The notes beneath the pieces are model-generated. The model did no database searches. It was not told the DNA's origin and saw nothing but the letters and a program-made list of their open reading frames with translations. A DNA stretch of 64,000 nucleotides from Phytopythium helicoides (Eukaryota > Oomycota > Peronosporomycetes > Pythiales > Pythiaceae): the NCBI GenBank assembly GCA_024867545.1, contig JANFNE010000025.1, positions 682,001-746,000 on the forward strand, read 5' to 3'. Every line of letters starts with the position of its first letter. Position 1 is the first letter of the stretch. The translations under genes were made by a program, and so were the position numbers. Below, piece after piece: positions 814 through 64,000 of the stretch.

Positions 814-2437
814 TTATATTTGAACAAGACGCGTGTATTCGTTGGGCTTGCCTTTGTCGACGTTCTCGTTGCTCTTAAAGGCCATGACCGTATGGTCATC
901 ATGCCCGTTGTGCACAGTCGAGACCAGCGCATATAGAAGCAGCGTCGGAAGGCCAAGTAGGGCGATCGGGGCGGTATAATCGCCATCAAGAGATGTCTGC
1001 GTCCACGGATTGATAACATAGTTCAACAATCCAAATGTAAATGAGACAACCGCGAGGAATGCCTGAAGTGTGCCGTAGAGCTCCGGAGGGAAGCACATCA
1101 CTGTCGTTAAAAACACAAGAGATAGTTAGCGTTTTGTTAGGGCGATCCATACCACTGAGACTTACTGATATACGCGAACTGTAGTGCATAGAGGCAAGCC
1201 TGAGCCATAGCGTAGACGATAAAGGTCAGCGCTTGAGCAGCCAGAGATGGCACTAGCATCATCATGGCGAAAATCTGAGTGAGCCCAAGACACGCAACGA
1301 ACACGAGCTTGAACCCAAAATGATCGATGGCGTATCCGATCACAGGAGAGTACAAAAATGTCCCGTTGACGAGCATAGGATACAACACGTCGGTGAACAG
1401 CCTTGCTTCTTGTACATTGTCGCCAGCGAGCCGATTCAAAAGACTGGGAAGGGCACCGCCTGCAAATGCAAACAGCAATGAAATCCATCCGAAGAAAACT
1501 GCGAAGAACCACAGGTCACGACGATTCATCAACTGGATCTTGAGCGCATCGAGCAAACCGTGAGGTGGCTACGCGTAGACAGAGCAGCATATTTGTTAGT
1601 CGACTAGTCGATACTTGTACTACTACAGCACCATAATGCAAAAGGAGAACACACGTGAATATGAGGCTTTTCAAGCCTGAATCCGGGGATCACAAGGAAA
1701 TCTGACGGAGCCACCACGTTGTTGGTGGGAAAGAGCAGGAAACACACGCAGGTGCACGCGAGAACGATGATTCTGATTAATGCCAGCGACGGAGTTAGCT
1801 TGGAGAAGCACACGCCCATCATGCACGCAAAAAAAGAAGCGCACCCATAGCTCGCGAAGAAGTCCTTGCGCGTGGTGAGGCCGTCAAATTGTAGCAGCAT
1901 GTATATGTAACCGGAGCAATTGAAGAGACTAGAGAGCACACTGCACACAAAACCTTGGACGCTGTAGAGCTGGAGTATTTGGAATGCGGCCAGGTACGAC
2001 CCCATTCCGCCAGCGCCAATCAACGCGTATCCAGCAATAATCAGCGAACCCGTGCCGTCCTTTGAGTCACCCATCGCTAGCGCAGCGTTTCCTAACGCTG
2101 ACAATACCAAGCCAACCAGCACAGTGACGCGAGGGCCGAGGACGTCCAGCGTGACTCCAAACATCGCGTTGGCGGCGCTGAGGCACAGGAAGCTGGTCGA
2201 GAACACGTACTGCAGCCGGATCTCTTGCGCCGCGCAGATAACCTCCCCCGGCCGGTGTTCACTCTCAACCACGTCGTCTTGGCCGCACAGCTCCGACCAC
2301 TGCCGTTCCCTCACCAGCGTCGAGTACACTGGTCCAAACCTGCGCTCAGCATTCACCTGTTCAGCCTCGGCCTCCTCCACCCAGCGATCTCCCCCTCTCG
2401 GCCTCCTCACCCAAGGATGAGCCCTCCAGACGTGCAC
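814..2437 (-). CDS. Major facilitator superfamily transporter (SLC43-like), 5' end disrupted
   Basis: Three exons read on the minus strand: about 2339-1655, 1568-1166 and 1100-814, joined by GT-AG introns of 86 and 65 bp that keep frame. Hydrophobic segments alternate with short loops. The pattern FGPVYSTLVRERQWSELC followed by ICAAQEIRL and GVTLDVLGPR resembles the TM1-TM2 region of SLC43/FMP42-type MFS carriers. A normal first exon with the start of TM1 is missing. The frame stays open upstream to an ATG at 2437, inside the left inverted-repeat arm, which would give a chimeric N-terminus; alternatively an acceptor-like CAG ends at 2340 and exon 1 is lost or elsewhere. The C-terminus is polar and probably cytosolic. 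Substrate unknown, amino acids by family analogy. Confidence 0.7.
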
Positions 2438-2814
2438 AACACGAGCAGCGCCGAGAGCGCGAACATGAGCTCCTTGGGCACCTCGACGCCGTCGTCGGCC
2501 TCCTCGTGGCCCTGCGGCGGCCGTAGCTCGTCCGCGCTCGCGTCCTCAGCCTCCGCGTCGCCCACAGCCGGCCCCTGCGCGTCCCACGGCCCCCACGCAG
2601 CCGCCAAGGCGCCCGCAGCCGCGCGCAGGCCGCCGACGTCGCTGGCGCTGCGCACGGGCGGGCGCCGCGCGGAGACCTGGAGGCCGCTGCGCGCGTGGCG
2701 CAGAGCCGGGCCCGCGGTGGGCGGCGCGTCGGCCGAGGCGAAGCGCACGCGCGGGTAGTCGCCGCGCAGGCCGCGGGCCTCGGCCATGCGCAGCGCCACG
2801 AACCGCTGCGGCAT
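2407..2814 (-). CDS. Small C-terminally anchored protein of unknown function, left-arm copy
   Basis: ATG at 2814 opens a 135-residue frame ending at 2407. The N-terminal half is Arg- and Ala-rich, the middle is acidic, and the protein ends in one hydrophobic segment (ELMFALSALLVLCTSGGLIL) right before the stop, the layout of a tail-anchored membrane protein. The start was chosen because the mirror copy at 9652-10059 keeps exactly the same 135-residue frame although the surrounding DNA differs; only about three residues differ (P/L in the middle, EEA/EAP before the anchor). I do not recognise the family. It is divergent from the VTVHEFG-domain gene in the same arm, about 1.3 kb away. Conservation of the frame in both arms is the main support that it is real. 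Confidence 0.6.
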   Translation of the reverse strand: MPQRFVALRMAEARGLRGDYPRVRFASADAPPTAGPALRHARSGLQVSARRPPVRSASDVGGLRAAAGALAAAWGPWDAQGPAVGDAEAEDASADELRPPQGHEEADDGVEVPKELMFALSALLVLCTSGGLILG

Positions 2815-4153
2815 GGCGGCGAGGCGAGGCGAGGCGAGGCGAGATGGGGTGTGGCGGCGGCGCGGGGGCCAGTATTGGGGGTGGTTGCCGTGCGTGCGGG
2901 GGGTGACGCGCCGGCGCTGGCGGGCGTACGGCACGGTACAGTACGTGCTCGAGTCGAGTCGAGTCGAGTCGGCGCTGCTTCGACTGATGCGGGTGGCGAG
3001 CGCCTGCGGGAACTGATGCGCGCGCTGTTTCGAATGGATGCCGGCGCGGGTGGGACAGCCGTGCAGTGCGGAGATACGACCTGCCACAAACAATATCCAA
3101 GCGAAACGTTGCCGCGGAGGGACGCGACGTACCGTACCTTTCCGTGCCACTGTTGTCGCGTCGACGGTTCAAGCCGCCCGCGAAGCGCCACGGACACAGA
3201 CAGATCGACTCGATCCTTTCGTCCGCGCTACGCTGTCTCGTGAGCTGTCTGAGACAGCATACCACACCCGCTGACACGCAAAGAGTGGACGTCGGTGGAG
3301 CCATCCGTTTCCACAGGTTCCGTCGTCGACGCACGCGGTCTCGCATCCATTCTCACAGGTTCCGAATCCACACCCTGACTGACGACGCGAGCAAAATGGT
3401 CGGCCACACTACTGTACATACATACTGTCGCGACGTATGGACCGGCGAGCACTACCCGGCCCAACTGGCCCTACCGTAGATTCCCAACGCCGCGCCGGGC
3501 CGCGCGTGCACTGCTGCCGTATCGATAGTACCGTCGCCTCGCACAGCTCGCCCTCCAGCAGCGAGCTGTACGCTGCGCACGACCGTACCGTATCGGATAG
3601 TGCGCCGTCTTCAACCAACTGCGTTTCTTCTCCTCGCTCGCGCGCCTCAGCCTCAGCGCAGCTTGCGAAACCGCGCAGGCAGGCAGGCAGGCAGGACGGT
3701 GGGCGGACGGACGGCGGGCGGGTGGGCCGGCTGGTGGCAGCAGCCAAGCCAAGCCAAGGAGGTTCTGTCAAGCCGTGCGTCGTTTCGAAGGGCGGACGAG
3801 CGTCCGCTAAAACCTCGCCTCGTCCGCCAGAACCTCGCCATTCCGAGCGTACCCCCAGCCCGTCCGCCGCCGTACCGTAGACCAGCGTATGTACATCCAG
3901 TGTACGCAGGGGACCGAGGAGCCTTTCGTTGAGCGCACAGGCGTGAGTGAGGTCCTCGCGGCGCCGGCGACTGTCGCTCGCCCATTCCGTCATTCGGCCT
4001 CCCCCGAGCCAGCAGCGACACGCAGAGCTCCAGCCGCAGCCGCAGCCTCGAGCTCCGCGCCCCACCAGCACTAGCACTAGCAGCAGCCGCAGCCGCAGCA
4101 GTAGCTGCTCGCCACCCGCATCAGCCGCCTCCGCAGCGCCAGCGCACTCGCCA
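2815..4153. other. Divergent intergenic region of left arm
   Basis: This stretch of 1.34 kb lies between two divergent genes. It holds tandem pentamers (GGCGA around 2820-2845 and TCGAG around 2948-2970), a GCAG tetranucleotide run near 3680-3700 and a motif at 3274-3293 related to the element at 14173. Long frames here run antisense to each other and have no ATG-to-stop unit conserved between arms, so I call no gene. Confidence 0.6.
3274..3293 (+). promoter_or_regulatory. Degenerate copy of the ACAAACGC-AAGAGTGGACG element
   Basis: The sequence ACACGCAAAGAGTGGACGTC shares the AAGAGTGGACG core with the element at 14173-14197. It lies between the two divergent genes of the arm and is kept exactly in the mirror arm (9179-9198). 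A regulatory role is inferred only from recurrence upstream of genes. Confidence 0.3.
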
Positions 4154-4828
4154 ATGACGCAGCGCCCCGCCGGCTGCGAGAGCTGCGGCGGCCACTGCGC
4201 CCAGGACGCCGCCGAGCGCGCGGCGGCCCGACAGGCCCCGCTGCTCTGCGCCGCCTGCCAGCTTGAAGACGACGCCGACATGTACTGCGACGAGGCGCTG
4301 GACGACGCCAGCCAGCTGCAGCAGCAGCAGCAGCAGCACCGGCAGCAACATGACCTCCAACTACAAGAAGAGCAGCAGCAACTGCAACAGCAGACGACCG
4401 CGCCAGCCATGCCAGGCCGGAAGCGCGTGCGCTGGTCCACCATCACGGTGCACGAGTTCGGCGTGGCGCTGGGCGGCTCGGCCGTGTCCAACAAGGGCGG
4501 CCCGTCCATCGGGCTCGCCGACGCCCCCGAGTTCACCTGGACCACCAAGGTGGGCGAGATGGCCGAGTGCAGCGAGGGCGTGCACCGGTTCTCGCCGGCG
4601 CAGCGCGTGCGCCTGCTGCAGGCCGCCGGCGTCTCGGACGGCATGATCGAGCGCCACGCTAAGGAGGCGAGCATCATCCTGGGCTCGCGCCGGAGAACCT
4701 TCCTGGAGGACCTGGCGGAGGAGCGCAAGGAGAAGTCACTCAAGCGCAACGCCGAGCAGGCGACGCTGGAGCGGCCGTGCGCCGTTGCGCTGCGGCGTCC
4801 GCGGATGATCCCGGCCAACTACGTCTAG
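4154..4828 (+). CDS. VTVHEFG/GGPSIGLA-domain protein, copy 1 (left arm)
   Basis: The 224-residue frame starts at the ATG at 4154. An upstream in-frame GTG at 3947 is less likely because the stretch between is low-complexity and varies in length in the other arm. Layout: a Cys-rich N-terminus (CESCGGHC and CAAC, possible metal ligands), a Gln-rich stretch of about 45 residues, then the core KRVRWSTITVHEFGVALGG followed by GGPSIGLADAPEFTW, then a second block RVRLLQAAGVSDGMIERHA and SRRRTFLEDL, ending in a basic helix. The protein is identical at all 224 positions to copy 2 in the right arm. The first block resembles the N-terminal domain of metazoan CSRNP nuclear proteins (VTVYYF...GGxSLGMA) and GDNP/GxP motif proteins of diatoms; both are memory-based and unverified. 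A nuclear or protein-binding role is inference. Confidence 0.75.
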   Translation: MTQRPAGCESCGGHCAQDAAERAAARQAPLLCAACQLEDDADMYCDEALDDASQLQQQQQQHRQQHDLQLQEEQQQLQQQTTAPAMPGRKRVRWSTITVHEFGVALGGSAVSNKGGPSIGLADAPEFTWTTKVGEMAECSEGVHRFSPAQRVRLLQAAGVSDGMIERHAKEASIILGSRRRTFLEDLAEERKEKSLKRNAEQATLERPCAVALRRPRMIPANYV

Positions 4829-5647
4829 GCTAGCGATCATTGCCAGCCAGCTCCACCAGCTCCACAAACTATTTTGAAGACGGCCGCCGCGACCTATCCC
4901 TGGCAGGTCGCCACGCAACGCTGCGGGTCGGATCGGAGCGGCCTGCGCAGCACCTCGCCAACGGACCAGGGGCGCGATCTAAGTTATTCGAGCGAGCGAG
5001 CGCGTGAGGAGCTTCGTCCTCGTCCTCGCCCTCGCCATTTCAGTCGGAAGTCCGCTCACCCGCCCACACGGATGCAAGGGTGGGTGGTTATGAAAAACTA
5101 GAGACCGAGACCAGTCGGTGGTCTGCACGCCAAACGGAAGGAATGAAATATACATGCCATTGATAGTTGCGTTGCCCATCGGAGGCTCCTTTTGCACGGG
5201 TTGATGTTGTCGACGATCGCATGAGCTCGAACACCTACTGTCAAACCACCACTCGCAAAGCAGATCGCGGGCTCTGATCACGCTGACTACTCTTTCCTGC
5301 ATCAACGGGCTGATCTGCTCTATCCAAACTCATTTTCTCAGTGTTATTCGTGGCAACAAAGTCCACGCTCGCGTTGCAGTGGAGGCTAGCGACGATGACG
5401 GCGGCGGTGTGCCGTCGGTGTCATTGCCATGTGCGGCTGGCAGAGCGCGTCGGCGCGGATGCGCTTCGTCCAGTGCTCCCATCTGGGCACAGGCGCTCCC
5501 TGCACCTTGCACGCAAGAAGGCCAAAAAGCTGGAAGCTGGTAGCTCGCCCAGCGCTGGCTGTAGCTCCGCACCTCAACTCGCAACGCGGCGATGAGACGA
5601 CTGGATTTCAGTCGCAGCGCGATCTGTGCGGTGGTGCACAGTTGGGC

Positions 5648-6823
5648 AGTGGTGCGAGTCAGATTGATGTGATTTGAAGGTGCTCCTTGTGTTGTGTGGA
5701 TGATTCCCCCGTTTTGGCATGTATTTAGCCTAGCATGCGTGATACAAGGATCGTCGAGCAACTCGAACAGCAGCTCGGCTGCTGAATCATTCGTGGATGT
5801 TGGTGTGTGCCGGGGGTATCCCCCCTCTGCGCGGACCTCCCACCCACCGTCCATTGCGCTCGACTTAGTCGACTAGCATTCTGTATGGTCTCTCTCCACT
5901 CAGATTACTTTTGCAGCAGAGCATTGCCACGCAGTCGTCATGACCGCGGAATGAAACTTTGGCTATTGCGCTCGGCAAGCAAGTAGGAACACTCACGCAC
6001 CAGCCACAACAGCACCTGATGCGGTGGTAGGACGCCACGCATTTTAAACTGCTGCGCACTCGACTGCAGCGCTCTCGACTCCTCTGCTGCTATTCGCGTC
6101 GTCGCCACAGATTGGCGTCATGCCATGTCTATGAAAATCATGCGACGTGTGGTCACTAGTGTCCACTAAGCGGACGAATGGGAGCTTAGGATTTCAGCCC
6201 CGTCAAGCTTCGGTCGCCCGCCATACAAACGTTCAGAGCGTCGATCGTGGTGGCGTGAAGGCTTGCGACGCCACGCATCATCCTCCATCCTTGTGAATTT
6301 TGCGTCGGGAACTTCGGCTGCGGCAGAAGCGGCCATGCTTGGGGGCGGCATGATATCGTATCCAGAGGTGACTCGATAGTACTAGCTCGGCGTGGCTAGC
6401 ACCGCTGACGAGCTGATATGCTGGAGAACAAAAAGTGTATCTCACGAATATTTGGGTGGGCGAAGAACCATCTACATGGCTGACTCGATGCCGTTGATTC
6501 TCTGCTGGAAACGAGCATCTCCATCCCGGCGAGGCAGCTGCTCTCGTTGTAGACGACCGGCGACATGGCTGCATTCAATAGCAACGCACAGCAGTCCAAG
6601 AGCTCCGATGGGTGTTCAAGTGACAAACCTGAAAGTCTCAAAAACGCAGTAGCATGAGATCAATGTAGTGCACGGACTTTGATGTAGGAGCGGCCTCTAC
6701 GGGGGATACCTAGGGCACACGGCATCACGCATTTCGGCACCTGATGACGCGGTTCGACTGGTACCTCTTCATGTATACGACGTGAAACACATGACGCCGC
6801 AATTCGGTCAAGCTTCCATGCCA
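5648..6823. other. Unique spacer between inverted-repeat arms
   Basis: The spacer is 1176 bp and has no match to the arms. It contains short frames only, none with recognisable motifs or a convincing start, and a CATACAAACG match at 6222. I see no promoter-gene unit, tRNA or element ends. Confidence 0.6.
6222..6236 (+). promoter_or_regulatory. Partial CATACAAACG element in spacer
   Basis: CATACAAACGTTCAG matches the first ten bases of the element at 14173 (CATACAAACGCCAAG). There is no clear gene next to it. It is listed only because the ten-base core recurs in the window. Confidence 0.2.
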
Positions 6824-7647
6824 GCCCAACTGTGCACCACCTTACAGATCGCGCTGCGACTGAAATCCAGTCGTCTCATCGCCGCGTTGCGAGTTGAGGT
6901 GCGGAGCTACAGCCAGCGCGGGCGAGCTACCAGCTTCCAGCTTTTTGGCCTTCTTGCGTGCAAGGTGCAGGGAGCGCCTGTGCCCAGATGGGAGCACTGG
7001 ACGAAGCGCATCCGCGCCGACGCGCTCTGCCAGCCGCACATGGCAATGACACCGACGGCACACTGCCGCCGTCATCGTCGCCACCCCCCACTGCAACGCG
7101 AGCGTGGACTTTGTTGCCACGAATAACACTGAGAAAATGAGTTTGGATAGAGCAGATCAGCCCGTTGATGCAGGAAAGAGTAGTCAGCGTGATCAGAGCC
7201 CGCGATCTGCTTTGCGAGTGGTTTGACTGTGGTCGCCTGAGGTGTTCAAGCTCATGCGATCGTCGACAACATCAACCCGTGCAAAAGGAGCCTCCGATGG
7301 GCAACTCAACTATCAATGGCATGTATATTTCATTCCTTCCGTTTGGCGTGCAGACCACCGACTGGTCTCGGTCTCTAGTTTTTCATAACCACCCACCCTT
7401 GCATCCGTGTGGGCGGGTGAGCGGACTTCCGACTGAAATGGCGAGGGCGAGGACGAGGACGAAGCTCCTCACGCGCTCGCTCGCTCGAATAACTTAGATC
7501 GCGCCCCTGGTCCGCTGGCGAGGTGCTGCGCAGGCCGCTCCGATCCGACCCGCAGCGTTGCGTGGCGACCTGCCAGGGATAGGTCGCGGCGGCCGTCTTC
7601 AAAATAGTTTGTGGAGCTGGTGGAGCTGGCTGGCAATGATCGCTAGC

Positions 7648-8322
7648 CTAGACGTAGTTGGCCGGGATCATCCGCGGACGCCGCAGCGCAACGGCGCACG
7701 GCCGCTCCAGCGTCGCCTGCTCGGCGTTGCGCTTGAGTGACTTCTCCTTGCGCTCCTCCGCCAGGTCCTCCAGGAAGGTTCTCCGGCGCGAGCCCAGGAT
7801 GATGCTCGCCTCCTTAGCGTGGCGCTCGATCATGCCGTCCGAGACGCCGGCGGCCTGCAGCAGGCGCACGCGCTGCGCCGGCGAGAACCGGTGCACGCCC
7901 TCGCTGCACTCGGCCATCTCGCCCACCTTGGTGGTCCAGGTGAACTCGGGGGCGTCGGCGAGCCCGATGGACGGGCCGCCCTTGTTGGACACGGCCGAGC
8001 CGCCCAGCGCCACGCCGAACTCGTGCACCGTGATGGTGGACCAGCGCACGCGCTTCCGGCCTGGCATGGCTGGCGCGGTCGTCTGCTGTTGCAGTTGCTG
8101 CTGCTCTTCTTGTAGTTGGAGGTCATGTTGCTGCCGGTGCTGCTGCTGCTGCTGCTGCAGCTGGCTGGCGTCGTCCAGCGCCTCGTCGCAGTACATGTCG
8201 GCGTCGTCTTCAAGCTGGCAGGCGGCGCAGAGCAGCGGGGCCTGTCGGGCCGCCGCGCGCTCGGCGGCGTCCTGGGCGCAGTGGCCGCCGCAGCTCTCGC
8301 AGCCGGCGGGGCGCTGCGTCAT
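7648..8322 (-). CDS. VTVHEFG/GGPSIGLA-domain protein, copy 2 (right arm)
   Basis: ATG at 8322, stop ending at 7648, 224 residues, identical residue for residue to copy 1 at 4154-4828. It has the same domain order: Cys-rich start, Gln-rich stretch, STITVHEFGV core, second RVRLLQAAGVSDGM block, basic tail. The upstream Ser-coding AGC tract (8371-8405) differs in length from the left arm, which supports placing the start at 8322 rather than further out. Complete protein identity beside more divergent flanks suggests recent duplication with homogenisation by gene conversion or purifying selection. It is convergent with copy 1 across the palindrome centre. Function unknown, see copy 1. Confidence 0.75.
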   Translation of the reverse strand: MTQRPAGCESCGGHCAQDAAERAAARQAPLLCAACQLEDDADMYCDEALDDASQLQQQQQQHRQQHDLQLQEEQQQLQQQTTAPAMPGRKRVRWSTITVHEFGVALGGSAVSNKGGPSIGLADAPEFTWTTKVGEMAECSEGVHRFSPAQRVRLLQAAGVSDGMIERHAKEASIILGSRRRTFLEDLAEERKEKSLKRNAEQATLERPCAVALRRPRMIPANYV

Positions 8323-9651
8323 TGGCGAGTGCGCTGGCGCTGCGGAGGCGGCTGATGCGGGTGGCGAGCGGCTGCTGCTGCTGCTGCTAGTGCTGCTGCT
8401 AGTGCTGGTGGGGCGCGGAGCTCGAGGCTGCGGCTGCGGCTGGAGCTCTGCGTGTCGCTGCTGGCTCGGGGGAGGCCGAATGACGGAATGGGCGAGCGAC
8501 AGTCGCCGGCGCCGCGAGGACCTCACTCACGCCTGTGCGCTCAACGAAAGGCTCCTCGGTCCCCTGCGTACACTGGATGTACATACGCTGGTCTACGGTA
8601 CGGCGGCGGACGGGCTGGGGGTACGCTCGGAACGGCGAGGTTCTGGCGGATGAGGCGAGGTTTTAGCGGACGCTCGTCCGCCCTTCGAAACGACGCAGGC
8701 ACGGCTTGACAGAACCTTGGCTTGGCTTGGCTGCTGCCACCAGCCGGCCCACCCGCCCGCCCGCCTGCCTGCCTGCCTGCCTGCCTGCGCGGTTTCGCAA
8801 GCTGCGCCGAAGCTGAGCGGAGCTGAGGCACACGAGCGAGGAGAAGAAACGCAGTTGGTTGAAGACGGCGCATTACGGTACGGCCGTACTCGCTCCAGAG
8901 GAGTGCTGAGAGGCTTCGGTACTACGATAGCAGTGCACGCACGGAGCGGCGTTGGGAATCTACGGTAGGGCCAGTGGGGCTGTGGTGCTCGCCGGTACTC
9001 TCACCTGTCCATACGTCGCGACAGTGTTACTGCTGTAGTATCGCGCGTCCTGTGTGGCCGACCATTTTGCTCGCGTCGTCGGTCAGTCAGTCAGCCGGTG
9101 TGGATTCGGAACCTGCGAGAGTGGATGCGAGACCTGCGTGCGTCGACGACGGAACCTCTGGAAACGGATGGCTCCACCGACGTCCACTCTTTGCGTGTCA
9201 GCGGGTGTGGTATGCTGTCTCGGACAGCGCACGAGACAGCGTAAAACGGACGAAAGGATCGAGTCGATCTGTCTGTGTCCGTGGCGCTTCGCGGGCGGCT
9301 TGAACCGTCGACGCGACAACAGTGGCACGGAAAGGTACGGTACGGCGCGTCACTCCGCGGCAACGTTTCGCTTGGATATTGTTTGTGGCAGGTCATATCC
9401 CCCCACTATTCCAGTGTCCTGCGCGATCTAGCATCCATTCGAAACAGCGCGCGCATCAGTTCCCGCAGGCGCTCGCCACCCGCATCAGCCGAAGCAGCGC
9501 AGCGCTGATCAACTCGAGCATCTACAGTACCATGCCGTGTACCGTGCCGTACGCCCGCCAGCGCCGGCGCGTCACCCCCCACACGCACTACAACCGCCCC
9601 CAATACTGGCCCCCGCGCCGCCGCCACACCCCATCTCGCCTCGCCGCCGCC
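8323..9651. other. Divergent intergenic region of right arm
   Basis: This is the mirror of 2815-4153. It holds a CCTG tetranucleotide run near 8762-8790, the conserved 20-mer at 9179-9198 and the most divergent part of the arm (8870-9030). No gene is supported. Confidence 0.55.
9179..9198 (-). promoter_or_regulatory. Mirror copy of the AAGAGTGGACG element
   Basis: The exact reverse complement of 3274-3293, kept although neighbouring sequence in the arms has diverged. This is consistent with constraint, but one site is weak evidence. Confidence 0.3.
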
Positions 9652-10059
9652 ATGCCGCAGCGGTTCGTGGCGCTGCGCATGGCTGAGGCCCGCGGCCTGC
9701 GCGGCGACTACCCGCGCGTGCGCTTCGCCTCGGCCGACGCGCCGCCGACCGCTGGCCTGGCTCTGCGCCACGCGCGCAGCGGCCTCCAGGTCTCCGCGCG
9801 ACGCCCGCCCGTGCGCAGCGCCAGCGACGTCGGCGGCCTGCGCGCGGCTGCGGGCGCCTTGGCGGCTGCGTGGGGGCCGTGGGACGCGCAGGGGCCGGCT
9901 GTGGGCGACGCGGAGGCCGAGGACGCGAGCGCGGACGAGCTGCGGCCGCCGCAGGGCCACGAGGCGCCCGACGACGGCGTCGAGGTGCCCAAGGAGCTCA
10001 TGTTCGCGCTCTCGGCGCTGCTCGTGCTGTGCACGTCCGGAGGGCTCATCCTTGGGTGA
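9652..10059 (+). CDS. Small C-terminally anchored protein of unknown function, right-arm copy
   Basis: ATG at 9652, TGA at 10057-10059, 135 residues. It has the same layout as 2407-2814: basic Ala/Arg-rich N-terminus, acidic middle (DAEAEDASADE), then PKELM and a single C-terminal hydrophobic helix ending at the stop. Three residues differ from the left copy. The stop and the length are kept in both arms, while a second overlapping frame through this 3' end is closed here by TAG at 10083-10085 (TGG in the left arm). No family recognised. Post-translational insertion into a membrane through the tail is an inference from the layout. Confidence 0.6.
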   Translation: MPQRFVALRMAEARGLRGDYPRVRFASADAPPTAGLALRHARSGLQVSARRPPVRSASDVGGLRAAAGALAAAWGPWDAQGPAVGDAEAEDASADELRPPQGHEAPDDGVEVPKELMFALSALLVLCTSGGLILG

Positions 10060-10751
10060 GGAGGCCGAGAGGGGGAGATCGCTAGGTGGAGGAGGCCGAG
10101 CGTCTGTGCCGAGTGCCTGTGCTCTCAAGACAGCTCCAATTGGTGGGTTTGCATGATCCTTTGAAGATGGCCATGCTTCAATACCCGCTGCTGCGGTGCG
10201 TTGTGGCTGAGCTGAGCCATGGCCGTCAGTCGTCTACTGCGAGTGCAGCTGGGTTCATCGTCGAGATAGGATGGCTACTCCGAGCACTGCAAGTGTCGAC
10301 ATGGAGTCACCCATGCAAATTTCGCCGCTCAAAAATTCGGCGAGATACTTTCGCCATCTCATGTTACAGCATGCTCTGCGAACGCCAAAGCCACAGCACT
10401 ACGTTATCGCCATGTACTTGCAGATAACAGCTCTGCTTCTGCCGCCGGCCAACGTTCTTCTCCCCCCAGCGCAATATTCTCCTGGGTCGGTGGATGCGGC
10501 GAGCCGGACGTCGCAAGCTCCGTGTTGTAGCCACGCTCCAATGGGAGCGTTTGTATGAGGGGCGGACTGCAATGGCTCGTTCGATTCGCCCCGTCTCTGT
10601 CTCCATTCGTCCACTCAGTGGACATAAGTGTTCGCACGTCACAGATTATCACCGATTGTTTGCATCATCATGCCTCGCGTCGCATGTCAAGCCAAACGCT
10701 ATATGTGGGCCACATACTGGCGAGCTGGTGTCCCCCCTTGGATCGCTCATC
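10060..10751. other. Intergenic region upstream of symporter
   Basis: This region contains the outer end of the right arm (to 10100), then unique sequence. A CATACAAACGC match lies on the minus strand at 10547-10557. A 95-residue frame at 10271-10558 has no recognisable features and I do not call it. Confidence 0.5.
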
Positions 10752-12962
10752 ATGACCGCCACGGAGGACTCGCCAGGAATGGCGGCGCCTTTCTCGGCGA
10801 CGAGCCTCGGCACGCTGGACCTGGTGCTCTGCGGCGGGTACCTGCTCTCTGTGCTGTTCGTGGGGCTCTTCTTCACGTTCAAGGAGCGCCGCGATCGCGA
10901 GAGGTTCCGCCGAGAAAGAGCGGTCAAGGCTGCTCGCGGCAGCGCCAAGAAGGACAGCCACGCCGACGAGATATTGGAAGAGTACTACCTGGGCGGCCGA
11001 CGGATCCCGTGGTGGGCGCTTGCGGTCGCGGACGTGAGCTCGTACATTGACATCTCCGGGACCATGATCAACACGGCGCTGGTGTACGCGCTCGGCGTGC
11101 AGGGCATGTACATCGAGATCCGCGGCGGGCTGTGCCTCTTCCTGGCCTTCCAGCTCGCATACACGGGCAAGCTCTCGCGCAGGTGCCCCGTCAAGACGCG
11201 GGGAGAGTGGTGAGTGCGTGTCTGTGGCATGGATGGATGATGGTTGTGGGTTGACGAGCTTCTCAACCTGTCGCAGGATCAAGTTCAGATTTGGAGATCG
11301 ACGAGAAGCGGTGCTCTTGCGCACGACGATCGCAATCACATCCATGACGAGTGGGATTCTTGCAGTGACCTACTTTGCTGTCGGTGGCGGTATGTGCCAT
11401 GCTGGGCTACTTCGTGGAGCCAACTTGCGTTCTGACAGTTTCGTTGTGCAGGCAAGTTTTTCACCGAGTTTGTAGATATCCCCGCGTGGCTTGGTCTTCC
11501 ATCCGAGTTTTGGGCTGCAGGACTTCTCATGGTTGTTGCACTTGCCTACACGGTTGCTTCGGGATTCACGACCTGTTGTGTACACGGACGTCTACCAGAG
11601 CTTCTTCATCTTTGCGTCGTTCATCATCGTCGCTTGCATGGGTGCTGGCGTCGCCCTGCCTGAACATTTTCCCGTGTTTTTGCCACTCAAGAATGGCGAC
11701 GGGAGTAAGGATCTGGTGCAGTTCAATACGACCCGCACGTCGTGGGTATCTGCGGTTCCTTCAGGCCACCTGCATCTTCCTGAAGAGGCGACCGTACTCG
11801 ATGTACAATTCGTTCGGGCTGGTCATTGGCACGTATTTGGTGCTCCAGACTATGCGATCTGCCTCAGGCCCAGGCGGTTCTGGTCTCCAGACAGTGTTGG
11901 CCACCAAGTCAGAGCGTGAGGTGAGATCGCAGACGTTCCTTGCCATGGTTCTCCTCGGACTGCGATGGGCGTTCAGCGGTGGCGTGGCAGTGCTCGCCGT
12001 CACTACTCGCTCACCAGCAAGGGGGGCGACACAACAAGTGTACCCATCGACCCGGAGCGCGTGGTGCCAATCGTGATTGACAAGATGCTGCCAACAGGCG
12101 TGAAGGGCTTTGTACTTGCGGCACTCCTCGCAGCAGCGTTGACGACGTTTGACACGACGATCAACGCAGCATCATCCTACTGGGCCGTTGATATCTATCA
12201 GGCGCTGCTGAATCCGAAAGCCACGGAGAGGCAACTGCTGTGGCATGCGCGAGTGTCGACGTTCGGGGTCATGCTCGCCGGTCTATTGCTGTCGTTGGAT
12301 GTGACCACCATCAACCGGATCTGGGGTTTCATGACAATTGCGCTCGCTGGTGGACTGATCTGGCCATTCTTCCTTAGCTGGTACTGGTCTCGCTTCAACG
12401 CCGTAAGCTGCCTTGCTGGCGTCGCTGCTGGATTCATTGCCGCGTTTGCTGTCTTCATGTGAGTTCAAGTAAAGCACATAGATCGTCTCAAAACTAACGA
12501 ACTGTATTGATGCCTTACAGCTTCGACCCACAGTTTGAGGAGCTTTCTGCGTTCCTTGTGACGTCGACAGCCTCGATGGTAGCGAGCTTGGTCGTGTGCG
12601 CCATCACCAAACCACCGTCCGAGCAGATTCTGCGCCGATTCTTCCGCTATGCACGGCCGCCGGGTCTCTGGGGACGCATCAAGCATGCGTGCTTCCCTCA
12701 AGATGCGATCCACGACATTGATCGCGAGAACCGCGCGGACTTGTATTGCACCGGCCTCATCGCCGCCACTCAGCTGGCGCTCTACCTGCTCGCCGTGAGT
12801 GCTGTGGCGCGTGCGTGGGTCCAGTCCGTCGTGCTGCTCGCTGTGGTATGCCTGGCGTCGCCTGTCATCTACTTCAAGTGGTTCCTGAAGCTGCAGGACA
12901 GGCCGGTCGGACTGCTGCTCGCGCAGGACGACATGACCGCCCAGCTCCTTCCACAGGTGTAG
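10752..12962 (+). CDS. Sodium:solute symporter (SSS family), frame broken three times
   Basis: Exons are 10752-11209, 11277-11389, 11452-12458 and 12521-12962 with GT-AG introns of 67, 62 and 62 bp; all junctions keep phase. The start ATG at 10752 precedes TM1 (LDLVLCGGYLLSVLFVGLFF). SSS hallmarks include EYYLGGRRIPWWALAVADVS, then ASGF, VVYTDVYQSFFIF, SGPGGSGLQTVLAT and the ALLAAALTTFDTTINAASS segment. The third exon needs single-base corrections near 11574 (extra T), 11792 (extra C) and 12000 (missing base) for the protein to stay in register, yet the residues on either side are well conserved. A Na+-coupled plasma-membrane carrier; substrate not predictable. Either a young pseudogene or, more likely given similar breaks elsewhere, assembly errors. 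Confidence 0.8.
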
Positions 12963-14332
12963 GCTCGAATCAATCTTCTTCGACATCAAGTTGCAGTGCA
13001 GTGCTGGTGCAGTTGTCTTGGGTCATGAAAGCAGGCACACAGGCGCAGGCAGGCATGAGCCGTTTCGGCCGAACGCTGGCGCCACCACGACAGACCTGCA
13101 GTGGAAAGTCCGACGCGAGCGTTTCCTGCGCTCCATGCAGGTTGTTGTAGCCATTGGCGAGGTGATGACCACCAGGCGCCGCCATTTGGTAGAAAAGATG
13201 CCCGTGGAAGCGAGCCGGCTCGGTGCAGCGCTCCTCGCCATAACGGCCGCCTCGATCACGCAGCAGAGCTCAAGATCCGTGCACCGGCCCGAGGTCGTGC
13301 GATCGCGTCGCGCTTCAAAAGGCACAGTCCATCGTGCATACTCAAGTGCATACATTGCAGGCGTAGGTAATGGCGCTTCAAGTCTGTCTGCCAAGCCCGG
13401 TAGCGGACGAGCAGCTACGACACCATGCCCGAGAGTCGGACGAGACGGCGCTCGATAGAATCAGCCGCTGGCCTCGCGCGGTCGTGCTCGGTCTCTGCTG
13501 GTGAATGGGGCGGAACTGGCGATCGCGGGCGTGGCGAGGCGAGTGCTCTGCGATGAAGCGAGCGCGGCAACGCCACGACGCGACTCGCTCACTCACACAG
13601 GAGCGGAAGTTTCGTGGATCGCGAGGAAACCTCTCCAAAGCGCTTCGAGGCTGGCGGCGTTAGTACTATCCGGATATGGCACCACCAGCCCCGGCAAGGC
13701 TGAGATCGTGCGCAAATCTTGCAAAATTAGCGGCCGCCAAATCGAGCTGCCGCCTCAGCAATGGGCGAGAATCCGTTGATTCGGATGGCTGCTCCTGGAT
13801 GCCAGGCGACACGTGTGTGTGTGTTTAGCTTGGAGGAGGGGCCATCTCGCGGCTCGATCAAACCGTTGCAATCCAGCCGGGTTTCCAGCAAGTGGTCCCA
13901 CTGCCGCGGGCGTTCCGAGGCAGGAACTGATATCCGAACGCCTTCCATGCGTGTCATGGCTTGCCAGGAAGTAGCCCGAGTGCAGTGCAAGGGAGGCAGA
14001 GCGTAGCGTGGAGCACCAGTTCGGTACGTTCATGCCGCCTCTCAGCCGCAAGCCTCCAAGCTGCTCCGTACATGCAGGTCGCCGTCGTCGTCGTATCATC
14101 TGGCCGACTGGAAACCGAGCGATCCGCCACGACTTGAGCGGACGTCCACTGTGACACGGAAAAGCATTCCCCATACAAACGCCAAGAGTGGACGCCATAC
14201 GGTACAAACAGATCCACTGTGCAGCTCCACCATCCCAAAAAAAGCAGGCGGGCCGGCAGGGCCGTCGGCGGGCGCACAGAGCAAAACTCTTCGAGCCGCA
14301 CACGCCACCTCCGGACCTTCCAAGCCTCCGCC
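12963..14332. other. Intergenic region, no supported gene
   Basis: This stretch of 1.37 kb follows the symporter. It contains a short GT run near 13810 and the promoter-like element at 14173. Frames here lack motifs and overlap on both strands. Nothing else seen. Confidence 0.55.
14173..14197 (+). promoter_or_regulatory. CATACAAACGCCAAG-type element upstream of copy 3
   Basis: CATACAAACGCCAAG runs into AGTGGACGCC about 160 bp upstream of the ATG at 14333. A 20-base stretch of it matches 22583-22602 with one mismatch, the first 15 bases recur at 37233-37247 on the other strand, and the AAGAGTGGACG part recurs in both palindrome arms. Regulatory role inferred from recurrence. Confidence 0.4.
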
Positions 14333-14858
14333 ATGGCGCCCAAGGAGATGGCGAGTGACGCCATGGACCTGCAGCATCCCCAGCATCCCAGCAGCAGCAG
14401 CAGCAGCAGCAGCCCCAGCAGCGGCCCAAGAAGCGGCTGCGGTGGTCCACCATCACGGTGCACGAGTTCGGCGTCGGGCTGGGCGGCAGCTCCGTGCCTG
14501 GCAAGGGCGGCCCGTCCATCGGGCTCGCCGACGCGCCAGAGTTCACCGTGGACGACCTAAGGTGGGCGAGATGGCCGAGCGCAGCGAGGGCATCCACCGG
14601 TTCTCGCCCGAGGAGCGCGTGCGCCTGCTGCAAGCCGCCGGCGTCTCGGACGGCATGATCCTGCGCTTCTCGCGAGAGACCAACATCATCCTCGGCTCGC
14701 GGCGGCGCACGCTCGTCGAGGACATTGCCGAGCAGAAGAAGAGCGCCAGGAAGCGCAAGGCCGGCGCCGTCGCGCTCGCGACGCCCCCGACCATGCACGA
14801 GCGCCCGTGCCCGGGCTTCCTCAACCGGCCCCACATGATCCCGCCCAACGTGGTATGA
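14333..14858 (+). pseudogene. VTVHEFG/GGPSIGLA-domain gene, copy 3, two frame breaks
   Basis: The ATG at 14333 opens MAPKEMASDAMDLQH, but this frame runs into a poly-Ser reading of the CAG/AGC tract. The conserved core (LRWSTITVHEFGVGLGG, GGPSIGLADAPEFTVDD) is in a different frame that has no ATG of its own. After an extra base near 14557 the rest (KVGEMAERSEGIHRFSPEERVR to NRPHMIPPNVV) is in the third frame, ending at 14858. DNA identity to copies 1 and 2 is high over the core. The two breaks fall in a trinucleotide repeat and at a single inserted base. It could be a decayed copy or a sequencing artefact. Confidence 0.6.
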
Positions 14859-16432
14859 CCGCTGAGTCATGAAGCTGAGCCCCGCCCGCAAGTGTATTGT
14901 AAGATGCCGCCGCGACGGCCCCACACCGCCCCCGAGACCCCGCAGCCCTCCCGACGAGCCGTAGATTATGATGCCGAGTTATTTAATGCCCGCCGCCACG
15001 CGCAGGCGATAACTTATAGGTAGTGCAGCGGCCCTCGCGTCGACGCAGACAGCGCTGCAGTAGACGACGCACCGAGGCGCCAAGTGCCCCCACGTGTCGA
15101 CACTAAAGAAATGCACGAGCACTTTCATCCTCTCAATGCCCCTTCATACTGTGCAGCCAGCGCAACGACTACGAATCCATGTCACAATCAACGAACAGCT
15201 ACAAAAGCTGCAGAGGGAGCGTCATGAGACCACCACGCGACCCCAACTGCTAGCAATTGGGCAGCGCAACGCCGAGCCAATTGGCCGCACGTGCAGGAAG
15301 ACGACGCGTCGTCGAGGGAAGCGAGACAGCATGAAGGGGGCAGCATTGCCATGCCGTGGGTGGAGCCACCCGGCCCACAGGTGGCGAGCCGGGTCGGGTT
15401 TTTGGCTGGAGGGACGCGCTCGTTGAACCCAATTTAACTGGTCGCCTAATGTTGTTTTTTGTATGAGATTAGTCGCACCGGGTCGGGTTTTGAGCCCGTG
15501 ACGCTTGACGCGGCCTGCAAACCCGGGTTGAAGCTGCGGAGCGTTCTATTTTCACTTGGCAAAGTGTAGGTAAGCACAGATGGTACCACTTGGCACTCAT
15601 CGCGTCACCGACCGTGCACGGCGCTGTCACAGCTTCACACAGGAATCAGTTGGCAGGCGCTGCCCAGCGCAAGGCACGCTTGCACATCGAGCGCAAAGCT
15701 CATGGAGGCGAGCGGAGCAAGCAGGCAGGGTTGCTGCAGAGCTACGCGGCTAGGACAGCAGCTCCCTCGAGTCTTTCATGGCGAGCGATGGCGGTCGAGT
15801 CATGTCCACATGAACCCGTGGCGCTCGCTGGATCATGTCGACGCGCTGGCATGTTGGCTGCACAAACAAGCGGTGGCTGATACACCGCATCACGACAACA
15901 GCCAGTTGAGATGATGTCTGCCCCTGCCTGCTCCGCACTCGCCGTTGCCGAAGCCGTTCGACTCGACGAGCGTCCAGTTTCGGATATGCGTCCGCTGAGC
16001 TCCGCCTCCCCCTGCCGCCACACGCCTCACTGCGCTGGAGCTCTCTGCTCATCTTGCTGCTCGCCTGCTCCCCACTCGCTCGCCATCTCCAGCGCTCGGC
16101 AGCATTCTGGTGACGCTGGGGTTGCGCGTGACAAGGAGGTCTCTACGGGCTCGTCTGCCTGCAAGAGGCTAGGGGTTGGCCCATAAGCCTAGCCCTGTGG
16201 CGGACATCCGCAGGGGGACGACACTTTGAGCTCCGCGGGATCACCAACTCAGCTCACTTGCGAAATGTATGGCAAGTGTTCGCTGGTGCGAGCGGCTGTC
16301 GTGACTGGCGCGCGATGAGGAGGAGGGAGGGAAAAGAAGGGAGCGCCAGGGGAGTGGTGGGTATGCTGGGCCTTCATCACCGGCGCTAGGGCCGGCCCCA
16401 GTCCGCCTTCCCGCCTCCCCCTCCCCCCCGCC
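14859..16432. other. Intergenic region, no supported gene
   Basis: This stretch of 1.57 kb holds a repeated GGGTCGGGTTTT word at 15391-15402 and 15480-15491 and nothing else of note. Frames are short, overlapping and featureless. I see no RNA gene or element. Confidence 0.55.
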
Positions 16433-16738
16433 ATGGCCAAGTCCGTCAGCTTCTCGACCGTCACCGTGTACGAGTTCGGCGTCGGCATGGGCGGCAGCGC
16501 CGTGCCGAGGCGCGGTGGGCCGTCCGTGGGGCTCGCCGCCAAGCCGCAGAGCGTGTGGACGACCCAACTGGACGCGAGCGAGAAGCGCAAGCGAGCCAAG
16601 CGCGTGCGCTGGTTCAAGCCCACCGAGCGCGTCGCCATGCTCGAGAAGGCCGGCTTCAGCGAGCGCCGCATCCTGCGCATGCTCATGGAGAGCTCGCGCA
16701 TCGCCCAGTCGCGCCGGCTGAGCCTGCGAACGGCTTGA
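16433..16738 (+). CDS. VTVYEFG/GGPSVGLA-domain protein, copy 4 (short form)
   Basis: ATG at 16433 directly starts the domain: MAKSVSFSTVTVYEFGVGMG, then GGSAVPRRGGPSVGLAAKP, a short basic linker (KRKRAKRVRW), then FKPTERVAMLEKAGFSERRI and a MESSRIAQSRRLSL tail; 101 residues, no Gln-rich or Cys-rich N-terminus. It shows the minimal unit of the family: two conserved blocks joined by a basic stretch containing RVRW. It is convergent with copy 5, 56 bp between stops, and nearly identical to it over the first block. A nuclear localisation through the basic linker is an inference. Confidence 0.7.
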   Translation: MAKSVSFSTVTVYEFGVGMGGSAVPRRGGPSVGLAAKPQSVWTTQLDASEKRKRAKRVRWFKPTERVAMLEKAGFSERRILRMLMESSRIAQSRRLSLRTA

Positions 16739-16794
16739 GATGCGAGTGGTGAACGAACGTGTACTTTATTGCCGGCGGTCGACAGCGGCCGTGA

Positions 16795-17283
16795 CTACAA
16801 TAGGATCGGCATCGCCCGAGTAAATAGCTCTCCGCGTCTCTCTCTCTCTCTCTCTCTTGGCTTGCGCTGTAGCCCTAGATGGCGCGTCGGGGAGGCTGAC
16901 ACGGCGACGCTCAGGCGGCGCGACATGGCAATGTCGGAGCTCTCCAGCATCATGCGCTCGATCTGCTGCGCGCTGCAGCCGGCCTTCTCGAGCATGGCGA
17001 CGCGCTCCAGCGGCTTGAGCCAGCGCACGCGCTTGGCTCGCTTGGGCTTCTTGCGCGGCTTCTCCTCGGTCTCGTCCGCGGCGCGCGCGCGCTTCTTGGC
17101 CCTGCGCTTCTCGTGCGCGCGCACGGCGTCCAGCGACACGCTCCACACGCTCTGCGGCTTGGCGGCGAGCCCCACAGACGGCCCTCCGCGCCTCGGCACG
17201 GCGCTGCCGCCCAGCGCCACGCCGAACTCGTACACGGTGACGGTCGACCAGCGCACGGTCTTGTCGTGGGCCGCTCTCCTCAT
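16795..17283 (-). CDS. VTVYEFG/GGPSVGLA-domain protein, copy 5
   Basis: ATG at 17283, stop ending at 16795, 162 residues. It begins MRRAAHDKTVRWSTVTVYEF, keeps the GGSAVPRRGGPSVGLAAKP block, then has a long Lys/Arg/Glu-rich insert (about 45 residues with KKRARAADETEEKPRKKPK) before KRVRWLKPLERVAMLEKAG and MLESSDIAMSRRLSV. The C-terminal 30 residues are unlike copy 4. The strong DNA match to copy 4 in the first block, in opposite orientation, indicates a second, smaller inverted duplication. Function unknown. Confidence 0.7.
   Translation of the reverse strand: MRRAAHDKTVRWSTVTVYEFGVALGGSAVPRRGGPSVGLAAKPQSVWSVSLDAVRAHEKRRAKKRARAADETEEKPRKKPKRAKRVRWLKPLERVAMLEKAGCSAQQIERMMLESSDIAMSRRLSVAVSASPTRHLGLQRKPRERERERRGELFTRAMPILL
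16836..16858. repeat. CT dinucleotide microsatellite
   Basis: An uninterrupted run of about ten CT units (TCTCTC...) lies within the 3' coding end of copy 5, where it reads as alternating Arg/Glu on the minus strand. Confidence 0.8.
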
Positions 17284-17518: not shown

Positions 17519-18776
17519 ATGGAGCAGCCGGCGGCCAAGCGACGGCGCCTGGCTGAGCGCAAGCGCGTGGGCGACTATGAGCGCCGAGAGGAGATCGGCC
17601 ACGGCACGTACGGCACCGTCTATCTGGGCGTCCGCCGCGCCTCGAGCGACCGCGTCGCCATCAAGAAGGTGCTGGCGCCGCGCGCCGCCGCGCTCAAGGA
17701 GGCGAAACTGCTCGAGAAATGCAGAGGCGCCGAGCATGTCGTGCAGGTGGGCTGCTGCTGCTGTAGGGGGTGGCATGATGGCTCCTGCACATCCGAGCTG
17801 ACCGTCGGTCCGCCTGCAGATGCTAGAGGTGGTCGAGCAGAAGGACAAGGTCTTCCTGGTGCTCGAGTTCATGGACAGCGACCTGGAGAACGTGGTCGGC
17901 AGCCACGCGCAGGATGACGAGGACGCAGCAGCGCGAGCGGATCGACCGGAGCTGCCTATTGCACACGTCAAGACCTACCTCAGGATGCTACTGCGAGGCG
18001 TCAAGGAGCTGCATGACCGGGGAATCCTCCACCGAGACCTGAAACCCAACAACCTGCTCATCTCGAGCGCCACTGGCGTCGCCAAGATCACGGACTTTGG
18101 CATGGCGACGCTCATCGACGTACACGACGACGAAAAGGACCAGACGGAGAGAGCCAAGCGGTCGCTACAGGTTGTCACACGTGCCTACCGCGACCCGCAG
18201 CTCTTCTTTGGCGACGAGCACTACGGACTCGAGGTCGACATCTGGTCGGTCGGCTGCATCTTTGCGGAAATGCTGCTACGCCGCGTGTACTGCGACGGCG
18301 CATCCGACATCGACCAGCTTAGCAAGATTTTCACGGCGCTCGGGTCTCCGACCGAGAATGGCTGGGAAGGCGCGAGCAAGCTGCCATTCTACCTGAAGTT
18401 CAAGGACACGAACCCGACGCCGCTGGCCGAGCAGTTTCCCATGCTCACACCTGCTGGAGTGGACCTCCTGAGCAAGCTGCTGACGCTAGATCCCAAGAAG
18501 CGCATCTCGGCGAGGGATGCGCTCGACCACGAGTTCTTTACAGAGGAACCTCTTCCTGTCGATCCGAAAGAGCTCGTCGTCAGCGCAGCGCCGGACCTAG
18601 CAGCAGCAGCAACTGAGGAGACTGGTGATAGTCCAGTTGCCGATCGACCCGCAGAGACCAGCAGCAATCCAGCTCCCGAGTCTGCGCAGGAACAGCAGGG
18701 ATGGGCGAACAAGGCGACGACGACGACGAGGCCAACGACGATGGCAACAACAGCGACAGCGACGGCGGGTTTGTGA
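17519..18776 (+). CDS. CDK7-like (CMGC) protein kinase with altered APE motif
   Basis: Exons 17519-17746 and 17820-18776 (intron 73 bp, EHVVQ joined to MLEVVEQ) give 394 residues. Kinase motifs: Gly loop GHGTYGTVYLG, AIKKV lysine, catalytic ILHRDLKPNNLLI, DFG in KITDFGMA, and DIWSVGCIFAEML. The stretch from LQVVTRAYRDPQLFFGD through SDIDQLSKIFTALGSPTENG to LPFYLKFK follows CDK7/CAK more closely than other CDKs. Where CDKs have WYRAPE this protein has AYRDPQ, so the conserved APE glutamate is Gln. The activation loop is longer than usual. A Ser/Ala/Thr-rich tail of about 80 residues follows the kinase. Role in CDK activation or TFIIH is family inference only. It is convergent with the bL33m gene. 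Confidence 0.8.
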
Positions 18777-54700: not shown

Positions 54701-55195
54701 CGACGAATTTGCTCCTACTCCTCGCGATTCAGCCTCTGCACCATTTGCCCCTCGTTTCGTCTCCAAGGAGATTCTCGCTGGGTGGGCACTTGGATCTGGC
54801 GCTCTTGTAGCTTCCGATTTGGATTGTCGGACCACAGGGCTCCCTGTTCGTAATGGTTTCTTTTTCTCTGGACTTCGATACGTGCCTGGAAACACAGGAA
54901 CCTTCCTGGGAGATGTGTACTCTGTCGAGGTCGTGAACATAAATCGATGCGGGGTGTCAACAAGTGATGTAATTGGCGATGCTGTCATTGAGATTGCCTG
55001 CATTGGCTTGTTGGATGGCAGCGTCGAGCCGAACCCGCTACCTCCGTCAAACTCGAACGCCTGGTCAACAGATAGCTCGAACCTGGGTCTCGTGGCAGCA
55101 GGAGCATGCACGTCAGGACGGGCTGGTGAAGCCGCTCCATCAGGGACTCTTCGAGCTGGCCTCGTAGGCTTCCGTTTAGTTAGCGACGAGTCCAT
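42747..55195 (-). CDS. Axonemal inner-arm dynein heavy chain (DNAH3/7/12 type)
   Basis: ATG at 55195; the last stop ends at 42747, about 4150 residues and apparently intronless. The first 1460 residues (to 50830) form one frame: disordered start, tail and linker. Then the motor: AAA1 [18 protein letters not shown] with FDEFNRI (about 50730-50590), AAA2 GEAGSGKST (49890), AAA3 [10 protein letters not shown] (48830), AAA4 [10 protein letters not shown] (47810), the coiled-coil stalk around [20 protein letters not shown] (46700), AAA5, AAA6 with [11 protein letters not shown] and [14 protein letters not shown], and a C-terminal domain with [16 protein letters not shown] and [10 protein letters not shown]. 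About 15 single-base shifts between 43460 and 50826 interrupt the motor frame; none lies in the tail. It powers flagellar beating of zoospores (family knowledge). Length and single-head features fit the DNAH3/7/12 group. Confidence 0.9.
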
Positions 55196-55621
55196 GACCA
55201 GAGCGGCAGCCCTCGCGTCCAGGAGATAGCACTGCCACAGGCGCGACGGAGGGCTCTTCCAAACGCTGTAGGGTACACGTCTCGCTGCTGGACTTGCAAA
55301 GGGTCGTTTTCCCAAATTGACCGCAGTGGTGACAGGTCGCAAGCATTGGGTCGTTGCAGTGGTGCATGAGCCGGCGAAACTGTTGACACAACACCCAGGG
55401 TGCTGTATCTTCGACACAGTGCTTTTGCCAAGACCGAATTCCATACGGCGTCACCAAAATAAATCGCACGGTGTCATGGCGAATCAACCAACCGCGTAAC
55501 GCGATCCTTGTCTCCCGCCTCATTGACGCAGATAGATCTCACCTCTGACCAACACAACCGCTGCCATCTACATGCACTAGTGAAGTAAGTACTGTAACGT
55601 GAACTTGATTCTCCATCTCGG
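55196..55621. other. Upstream region of dynein gene
   Basis: These 426 bp lie between the dynein start and the end of the bromodomain gene, both minus. Short frames only; no gene or clear initiator seen. Confidence 0.5.
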
Positions 55622-63300: not shown

Positions 63301-64000
63301 TTGGTACAAATAAAATGCTAGGATGAAGTCGAATTTAATCCTATCCTCGTCTTGAAAAAAGTGATACACAAACCCGCGAGCGTCAGACGTGAAGATCGAT
63401 GTGATTAATCCTGAATTGTGGCCAAGGCCACCAATTTCCAGGGCTCGAGTTAAGCTGCTCCAGACCCACTCAACGGAGAGTGTAATGTCTTTCCAACATC
63501 GAGGGTAATGTGTTGCGTGCTGCATCCATATCCTCATGTCACGCCACGCTTGTGCAATATCAACGCATCGTCCAACCAGTGTACAATAAGGTTCTAATTG
63601 ACAGAAATGATGTTGCATCTTTGCCTCTGACTCTGCTCGTCGTTTTTCTTGTATATTAAGGGTAGCTCGGTTTTCAACCACTTTAAGAGACTTTGGAGCG
63701 TCGATGCATACGTCAGCAGCTGACGTTGTTGACAAAAAGTATAATAAATCGCTCTCGATGATCGATACTTGCTCTTCTGCAACTCGGATATCTCTCCGCA
63801 ATGCGTGAAGCTCAGTAAGAGCTTGTGACCTTCCACCCGCCTCGAGAATGGTCTGCCAGCATGTCTGCTCAATAAATGCTGATGTCAACTCAAATGGAAT
63901 AATACAAAGCTGGCTCTGGTAGATTGCCATCCAATCGGGGATTGAGGCTGAGAGCGAATAGATGAAAAATACTTGACAGTTGCAGCTGAGGAACTCAAAC
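60395..64000 (-). CDS. Divergent dynein heavy chain, C-terminal part (5' partial)
   Basis: The frame is open at the right edge of the window and runs to 61309, then exons 61235-60999 and 60933-60395 follow (introns 73 and 65 bp). It covers the end of the stalk onward. The segment with ALRRDIRVAEEQVSIIESDL aligns in order with the dynein post-stalk helix ([20 protein letters not shown] in the other gene). AAA6 shows GAPIVVIASAPQIDIVTLVG and RFHPDFRLWVALIQNS. The C-terminal domain has GVPPTWRKSLFSS, CIYIGGVVAEGILQLE, VPVILEVRA and FHCPIYRSFMVS. Many hallmark residues are changed (no [10 protein letters not shown]), so it is a highly diverged member. Axonemal or intraflagellar role cannot be decided; the AAA1 P-loop is outside the window. 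Confidence 0.75.

Follow-up and report, generated by a model that had tools for sequence, protein, structure and literature searches.

The question raised by this locus is what a family of small oomycete proteins does, five genes of which lie in a 64,000-nt stretch of the Phytopythium helicoides genome (assembly GCA_024867545.1, contig JANFNE010000025.1, positions 682,001-746,000 of the forward strand; hereafter the window, to which all coordinates refer). Their shared core, made of two sequence blocks, is almost certainly homologous, both blocks in the same order, to the CSRNP_N domain of animal CSRNP proteins, as judged from sequence comparison, and the proteins are probably protein phosphatase 1 (PP1)-docking proteins of a cysteine-less CSRNP kind. 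The genes, in the order C, C, D, B, A when named after their paralogous groups and otherwise designated by their first position, were located by open reading frame (ORF) and sequence reading at all five places given in a preliminary description of this DNA, the copy at 14333 being interrupted. Its statement that the members share blocks 1 and 2 was confirmed by sequence comparison. The features are listed below, with the basis of each in brackets.

4154..4828, + strand, group C gene, copy 1, 224 aa, with a Cys/Gln-rich N-terminal extension (ORF, tree)
4421..4435, + strand, K-R-V-R-W, predicted PP1-docking (RVxF) motif of copy 4154 (sequence reading, motif counts)
4436..4519, + strand, block 1 (STITVHEF...GGPSIGLA) of copy 4154 (HHalign, groups C and D alone against CSRNP)
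4589..4696, + strand, block 2 (FSPAQRVRLLQAAGVS...SRRR) of copy 4154 (sequence comparison)
7648..8322, - strand, group C gene, copy 2, protein identical to that of 4154 (ORF)
8041..8055, - strand, K-R-V-R-W of copy 7648 (sequence reading)
14333..14858, + strand, group D gene, frame interrupted (tblastn with P0131 and P0202)
14431..14445, + strand, K-R-L-R-W of the group D gene, RVxF-like with L for V (sequence reading)
16433..16738, + strand, group B gene, 101 aa (ORF, tree)
16439..16453, + strand, K-S-V-S-F, predicted RVxF motif of group B (CSRNP_N columns 4-8 by match start)
16601..16717, + strand, block 2 of group B, first residues R-V-R-W (ORF, sequence comparison)
16795..17283, - strand, group A gene, 162 aa, convergent with group B (ORF, tree)
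17248..17262, - strand, K-T-V-R-W, predicted RVxF motif of group A (CSRNP_N columns 4-8 by match start)
17164..17247, - strand, block 1 of group A (Pfam CSRNP_N match, HHalign)
16915..17031, - strand, block 2 of group A, with a pair of helices predicted at residues 91-100 and 105-130 (profile comparison, AlphaFold2)

The other three intact window proteins are 74, 44 and 44% identical to 16795. A search of the same genome (49 Mb, 100 contigs) with two window proteins yielded a sixth clear member, L012 on contig C14, while all other places had E values of 0.0196 or higher.

Homology of both blocks to CSRNP_N

The 16795 protein matched the Pfam domain CSRNP_N (PF16019) with 29.8 bits (E 7.3e-7), above the curated cut-off of 27. 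For profile comparison, a 62-row alignment was assembled from three window proteins and 59 of 211 relatives; CSRNP_N was found at E<=0.001 in 28 of these diverse rows. The CSRNP set was obtained by a search with one CSRNP domain and comprised the best 120 of 415 proteins at E<=0.01 (longest listed, 384 aa), 22 of which were used with HHalign. The two alignments matched at 94.4% (E 8.9e-8), with block 1, including the K/R-x-V-x-[FW] pentamer, aligned free of gaps to that of the metazoan proteins (CSRNP1-3/Axud1), and the conserved CSRNP block VTVYYF...VPSQGG..LGM was present in oomycete block 1; groups C and D alone still gave 90.6%. The preliminary description had noted that block 1 recalls CSRNP_N, an impression that both the Pfam and the HHalign results bear out, and the profile-profile comparison it proposed was positive also for block 2, which goes beyond its claim.

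Block 2 alone, when compared with the CSRNP region following block 1, scored 26.9, a value reached by none of 150 column shuffles (<=18.4), with 10.2 for the reversed comparison. It aligned on the CSRNP segment R..LLR.AGV...E...IR.SRE, which immediately precedes the Cys cluster. Restricted to groups C and D (27 rows), the comparison gave 31.3 for block 1 (shuffles <=15.2) and 29.6 for block 2 (shuffles <=17.9), neither score being reached in 100 shuffles. The AlphaFold2 models of 16795 (mean predicted local distance difference test value, pLDDT, 78.3) and of a mollusc (Lottia) CSRNP displayed the same order of elements, namely strand, strand, long helix and helix pair. Several observations weaken the case: 16433 scored 24.9 bits against CSRNP_N and thus fell under the cut-off, 4154/7648 gave no CSRNP_N match by themselves in the Pfam scan, and the Lottia model is weak (mean pLDDT 58.6). 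The probability assigned by HHalign itself to block 2 was only 57%, or 79% against the short segment.

A predicted PP1-docking motif at the start of block 1

Block 1 opens with the pentamer K-x-V-R-W (K-x-V-x-[WF] in general), in the profile columns in which animal CSRNPs have K/R-x-V-x-F, which is the RVxF consensus for PP1 docking; Trp replaces Phe in nearly all oomycete sequences. By match starts, the pentamer occupies CSRNP_N columns 4-8 in 16795, 16433 and a CSRNP_N domain (K-R-V-H-F), and fragments beginning after it scored lower on CSRNP_N (28.9 to 24.8, or -4.1 bits, and 24.9 to 16.6, or -8.3 bits). Motifs were counted with the strict RVxF consensus [HKR][ACHKMNQRSTV]V[CHKNQRST][FW], reportedly due to Meiselbach 2006. 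At the block 1 position, 173 of 215 rows matched it strictly and one more loosely, 37 had L for V and four were cut short; within the window, groups A, B and C match, and the group D gene does not. The strict motif was found anywhere in 174 of the 211 relatives, compared to a mean of 3.9 after shuffling. While 63 of the 120 listed CSRNPs had no recognisable block 1, 45 of the other 57 had the strict motif; a wider block 1 pattern recognised 59 listed CSRNPs, again with 45 strict matches, all at this place (shuffled mean 1.7). A second strict match (such as K-R-V-R-W) stands directly before block 2 in 16433, 16795, L012 and their relatives; 105 of 215 rows have two strict matches, and two-point docking is possible.

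PP1 itself is encoded in the same genome. The final exon of the gene gave matches to PP1-beta (E 1.2e-111) and PP1-alpha (E 2.7e-105) and includes a long stretch identical to PP1-alpha, which would hold most of the RVxF groove. The oomycete proteins resemble RVxF-type PP1 subunits such as NIPP1, ZAP and GADD34, in that the same strict docking motif is followed by a beta-prone stretch. They differ from them in the position of the motif beside a predicted folded core, with PP1 binding here predicted only, and group D also in having mostly L for V. The sequence R-K-R-V-R-W of group C (R-K-R-V-R-W-S-T around the pentamer in 4154) is very near the peptide GKKRVRWADLE, selected for displacing PP1 and predicted in text passages of PMC2587467 to be the most suitable high-affinity PP1 peptide. 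Among the animal proteins, CSRNP2 is also listed as PPP1R72 (passages of PMC6482147), and CSRNP3 is reported to bind PP1 via its RVxF motif. As to the earlier remark that the family has no described function, none was found for its oomycete members in the literature searched, but one animal CSRNP has this reported PP1-binding activity. Taken together, the pentamer is likely to be a site that docks PP1.

Certain findings speak against docking. The rows with L for V lie mostly on the group D side; among the 57 listed CSRNPs with block 1, nine match only loosely and three not at all; and 22 of the 59 have a looser match elsewhere, such as RIEF. RVxF-type motifs are usually disordered, and AlphaFold2 places the pentamer of 16795 beside a strand of the folded unit (residues 1-20, mean pLDDT 79-88). 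The text passages on CSRNP3 do not state the position of the mutated RVxF motif. In a second explanation, the core serves protein-protein interaction as a small folded domain that CSRNPs also possess, and the pentamer is kept for the fold, its RVxF likeness being incidental. The predicted strands around block 1, the confident model of block 2 (residues 91-120, mean pLDDT 91-97), conservation that covers all of block 1 past the pentamer, and the persistence of block 1 in rows with L for V would all fit such a domain, whereas the frequency of the strict PP1 consensus, far above that in shuffled sequences, and the reported RVxF-dependent PP1 binding of CSRNP3 make it unlikely that the resemblance is incidental.

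Absence of the cysteine cluster

The cysteine cluster of CSRNPs is missing: C.C.C occurred in none of the 211 relatives, and none had >=6 Cys in the last 80 aa, whereas C[GS]CxC was present in 114 of the 120 listed CSRNPs. Thus, the Cys-rich region with 10 positionally conserved Cys that characterises CSRNPs was not found in the oomycete relatives. Nor was the C-terminal transactivation domain, as judged by length, given that the window proteins comprise 101-224 aa and end soon after block 2. Homology of both blocks and absence of the cluster together indicate that the oomycete protein represents the CSRNP_N core ending before the Cys cluster. Since the core features are present and the Cys region is absent, we class it as a Cys-less relative and not among the full CSRNPs.

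This bears on the possibility that the proteins are sequence-specific nuclear regulators that bind DNA like animal CSRNPs, which is close to the regulator family proposed in the preliminary description. According to text passages of PMC1950078, mouse CSRNP1-3 are nuclear, select the sequence AGAGTG and have a transactivation domain; the DNA-contacting part of CSRNP is unmapped, and 16433 and 16795 are very basic (isoelectric points 11.8 and 11.5). Set against this, the cysteine motif typical of the listed CSRNPs is absent from all relatives, the group C protein is not basic (isoelectric point 6.1), and four proteins labelled homeobox by UniRef give no homeobox match, so that a role in DNA binding appears quite improbable. 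That the proteins are effectors which are secreted to act on the host and have borrowed the RVxF motif is suggested by the UniRef label 'RxLR effector candidate' on P0020 and is highly improbable, given that the three distinct intact window proteins have no strongly hydrophobic N-terminal stretch (best 10-residue mean 1.25-1.67), only 5 of 211 relatives reach a hydropathy of 2.0 in the first 40 residues, and the sole RxLR match among the window proteins lies inside block 2; a signal peptide followed by RxLR was not found in the window proteins by hydropathy and motif scan, no dedicated signal-peptide predictor being used.

With a docking-like site kept and the cysteine-rich part absent, the proteins are probably phosphatase partners, not DNA-binding factors. 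In the mechanism we favour, a small protein consisting of the CSRNP N-terminal core (blocks 1 and 2) without the cysteine cluster would dock with its pentamer on the RVxF groove of PP1, the following strand (VTVYEF) would extend along the enzyme, and the helix pair of block 2 would hold a substrate or regulator, or block the enzyme. The proteins may then act as targeting or inhibitory subunits of PP1, possibly in the nucleus. In groups A and B, the second R-V-R-W before block 2 could strengthen docking, while group D may have lost it or retained it in weakened form. It is also conceivable, although we would lean slightly against it, that PP1 docking by this core is the ancestral CSRNP function, older than the animal Cys-rich part, and that oomycetes retained the core by itself, expanded it to a conserved cluster of four genes and employ the products as dedicated PP1 subunits.

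According to passages of PMC10138878, the CSRNP family is conserved in metazoans. The occurrence of its N-terminal core without the cysteine part in a conserved oomycete multigene family sets the two halves of the protein apart and points to PP1 docking as the activity that animal and oomycete proteins share. Some 200 oomycete proteins, most of them nameless or named only hypothetical or uncharacterized, thereby gain a concrete functional hypothesis. The bare resemblance is not new, because PF16019 is already precomputed for 11 of the 113 relatives at E<=0.01, and UniRef names P0034 and P0137 after the CSRNP N-terminus. New here are the match of the second block, the lack of a Cys cluster and the proposed docking on PP1.

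Relatives and paralogous groups

Relatives were collected in two protein searches, giving 113 proteins at E<=0.01 and 109 at E<=1 (11 common to both; 211 in total). The search depends on shared 5-residue words and similar length, and its reach is confined to such relatives, so that absence elsewhere is not implied. Every relative with an organism name came from an oomycete (Phytophthora, Nothophytophthora, Peronospora, Plasmopara, Bremia, Hyaloperonospora, Peronosclerospora, Pythium, Globisporangium or Albugo), and their number excludes a chance likeness of the five members. Six relatives (P0020, P0172, P0187, P0188, P0190 and P0206) bear odd public names ('RxLR effector candidate', 'GTPase-activating protein GYP5' or 'Homeobox domain-containing') that look wrong; a Pfam scan of the four with a homeobox label in UniRef found no homeobox match.

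A tree was computed from 209 of 216 rows, with seven rows without the full core omitted and the interrupted 14333 gene not entered; it is built on few columns, and 115 of its 200 inner branches are open forks. It falls into two sides with a support of 100 each, one containing groups C and D (98 rows), the other groups A, B and E (111 rows). The genes 4154/7648 belong to group C (57 rows, support 88; with P0114 and P0118, 94), 16433 to group B (32 rows, support 96; nearest P0089, 95), 16795 to group A (32 rows, support 93; nearest P0001, 95) and the gene on C14 to a further group E (21 rows, support 89), whereas group D is the remainder of its side and no supported clade. In sequence, the pieces of 14333 come nearest to group D (P0131, 98% over 42 residues). 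This copy is not a single ORF: P0131 matches 14333-14386, 14422-14547 and 14559-14852 in three frames and P0202 matches in two pieces (tblastn). Intact relatives exist elsewhere, and the interruption of 14333-14858 reflects either a pseudogene or a sequencing error.

The order of the genes in other species was judged from locus tags in the search listings combined with the tree groups, hence from tags only and not from the regions themselves. Tags fitting the window order or its reverse were obtained for Pythium insidiosum (005642 C, 005644 D, 005645 B, 005646 A/E side), Pythium oligandrum (011565 C, 011567 D, 011568 A/E side), Phytophthora capsici (001263 C, 001267 D, 001268 B, 001269 A; extra copies 001254 and 001255), P. 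pseudosyringae (014412 C, 014415 B, 014416 A), P. cinnamomi (15721 A, 15722 B, 15728 C) and Globisporangium polare (7439 C, 7441 D, 7442 B, 7443 of unresolved group). Those of P. infestans (08538 A, 08539 D, 08542 C, 08547 B) and [Pythium] brassicae (009733 B, 009740 D, 009741 of unresolved group) depart from it. The locus tags suggest one conserved cluster. A, B, C and D are old paralogous groups common to Phytophthora, downy mildews and Pythium-like genera, and the gene set is therefore not a recent burst. Some copy-number change does occur, as at least two group C genes of Plasmopara halstedii bear tags that belong to a single contig. The local expansion and rapid copy-number change put forward earlier are thus apt for the C pair of the window but not as a general picture, since the groups are shared across genera and the tag order is similar in several; the low-complexity extensions mentioned alongside are real in group C.

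The inverted duplication and neighbouring genes

The group C pair lies in an inverted duplication, whose arms are separated by ~1.2 kb:

2366..5647, + strand, left arm of the inverted duplication, with a group C gene
6824..10100, - strand, right arm of the inverted duplication

The genes 4154-4828(+) and 7648-8322(-) show no differences in 675 nt and encode identical proteins, whereas the arms outside the gene differ at 120 of 2537 aligned sites, which would predict ~32 differences in the gene. This discrepancy suggests gene conversion or, alternatively, an assembly effect. The C pair looks like the only young duplication in the window. The outer ends of both arms hold similar ORFs (2407-2814 and 9532-10059).

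A piece of a sodium:solute symporter (11965-12462; PF00474, E 2e-16) is located between the C and D genes, and a protein kinase gene (17820-18776; PF00069, E 3.8e-40) adjoins group A. Dynein heavy chain regions were detected at 50789-55444 and 61081-63930 (PF08393, E 5.2e-133; PF03028, E 1.9e-4, under its cut-off).

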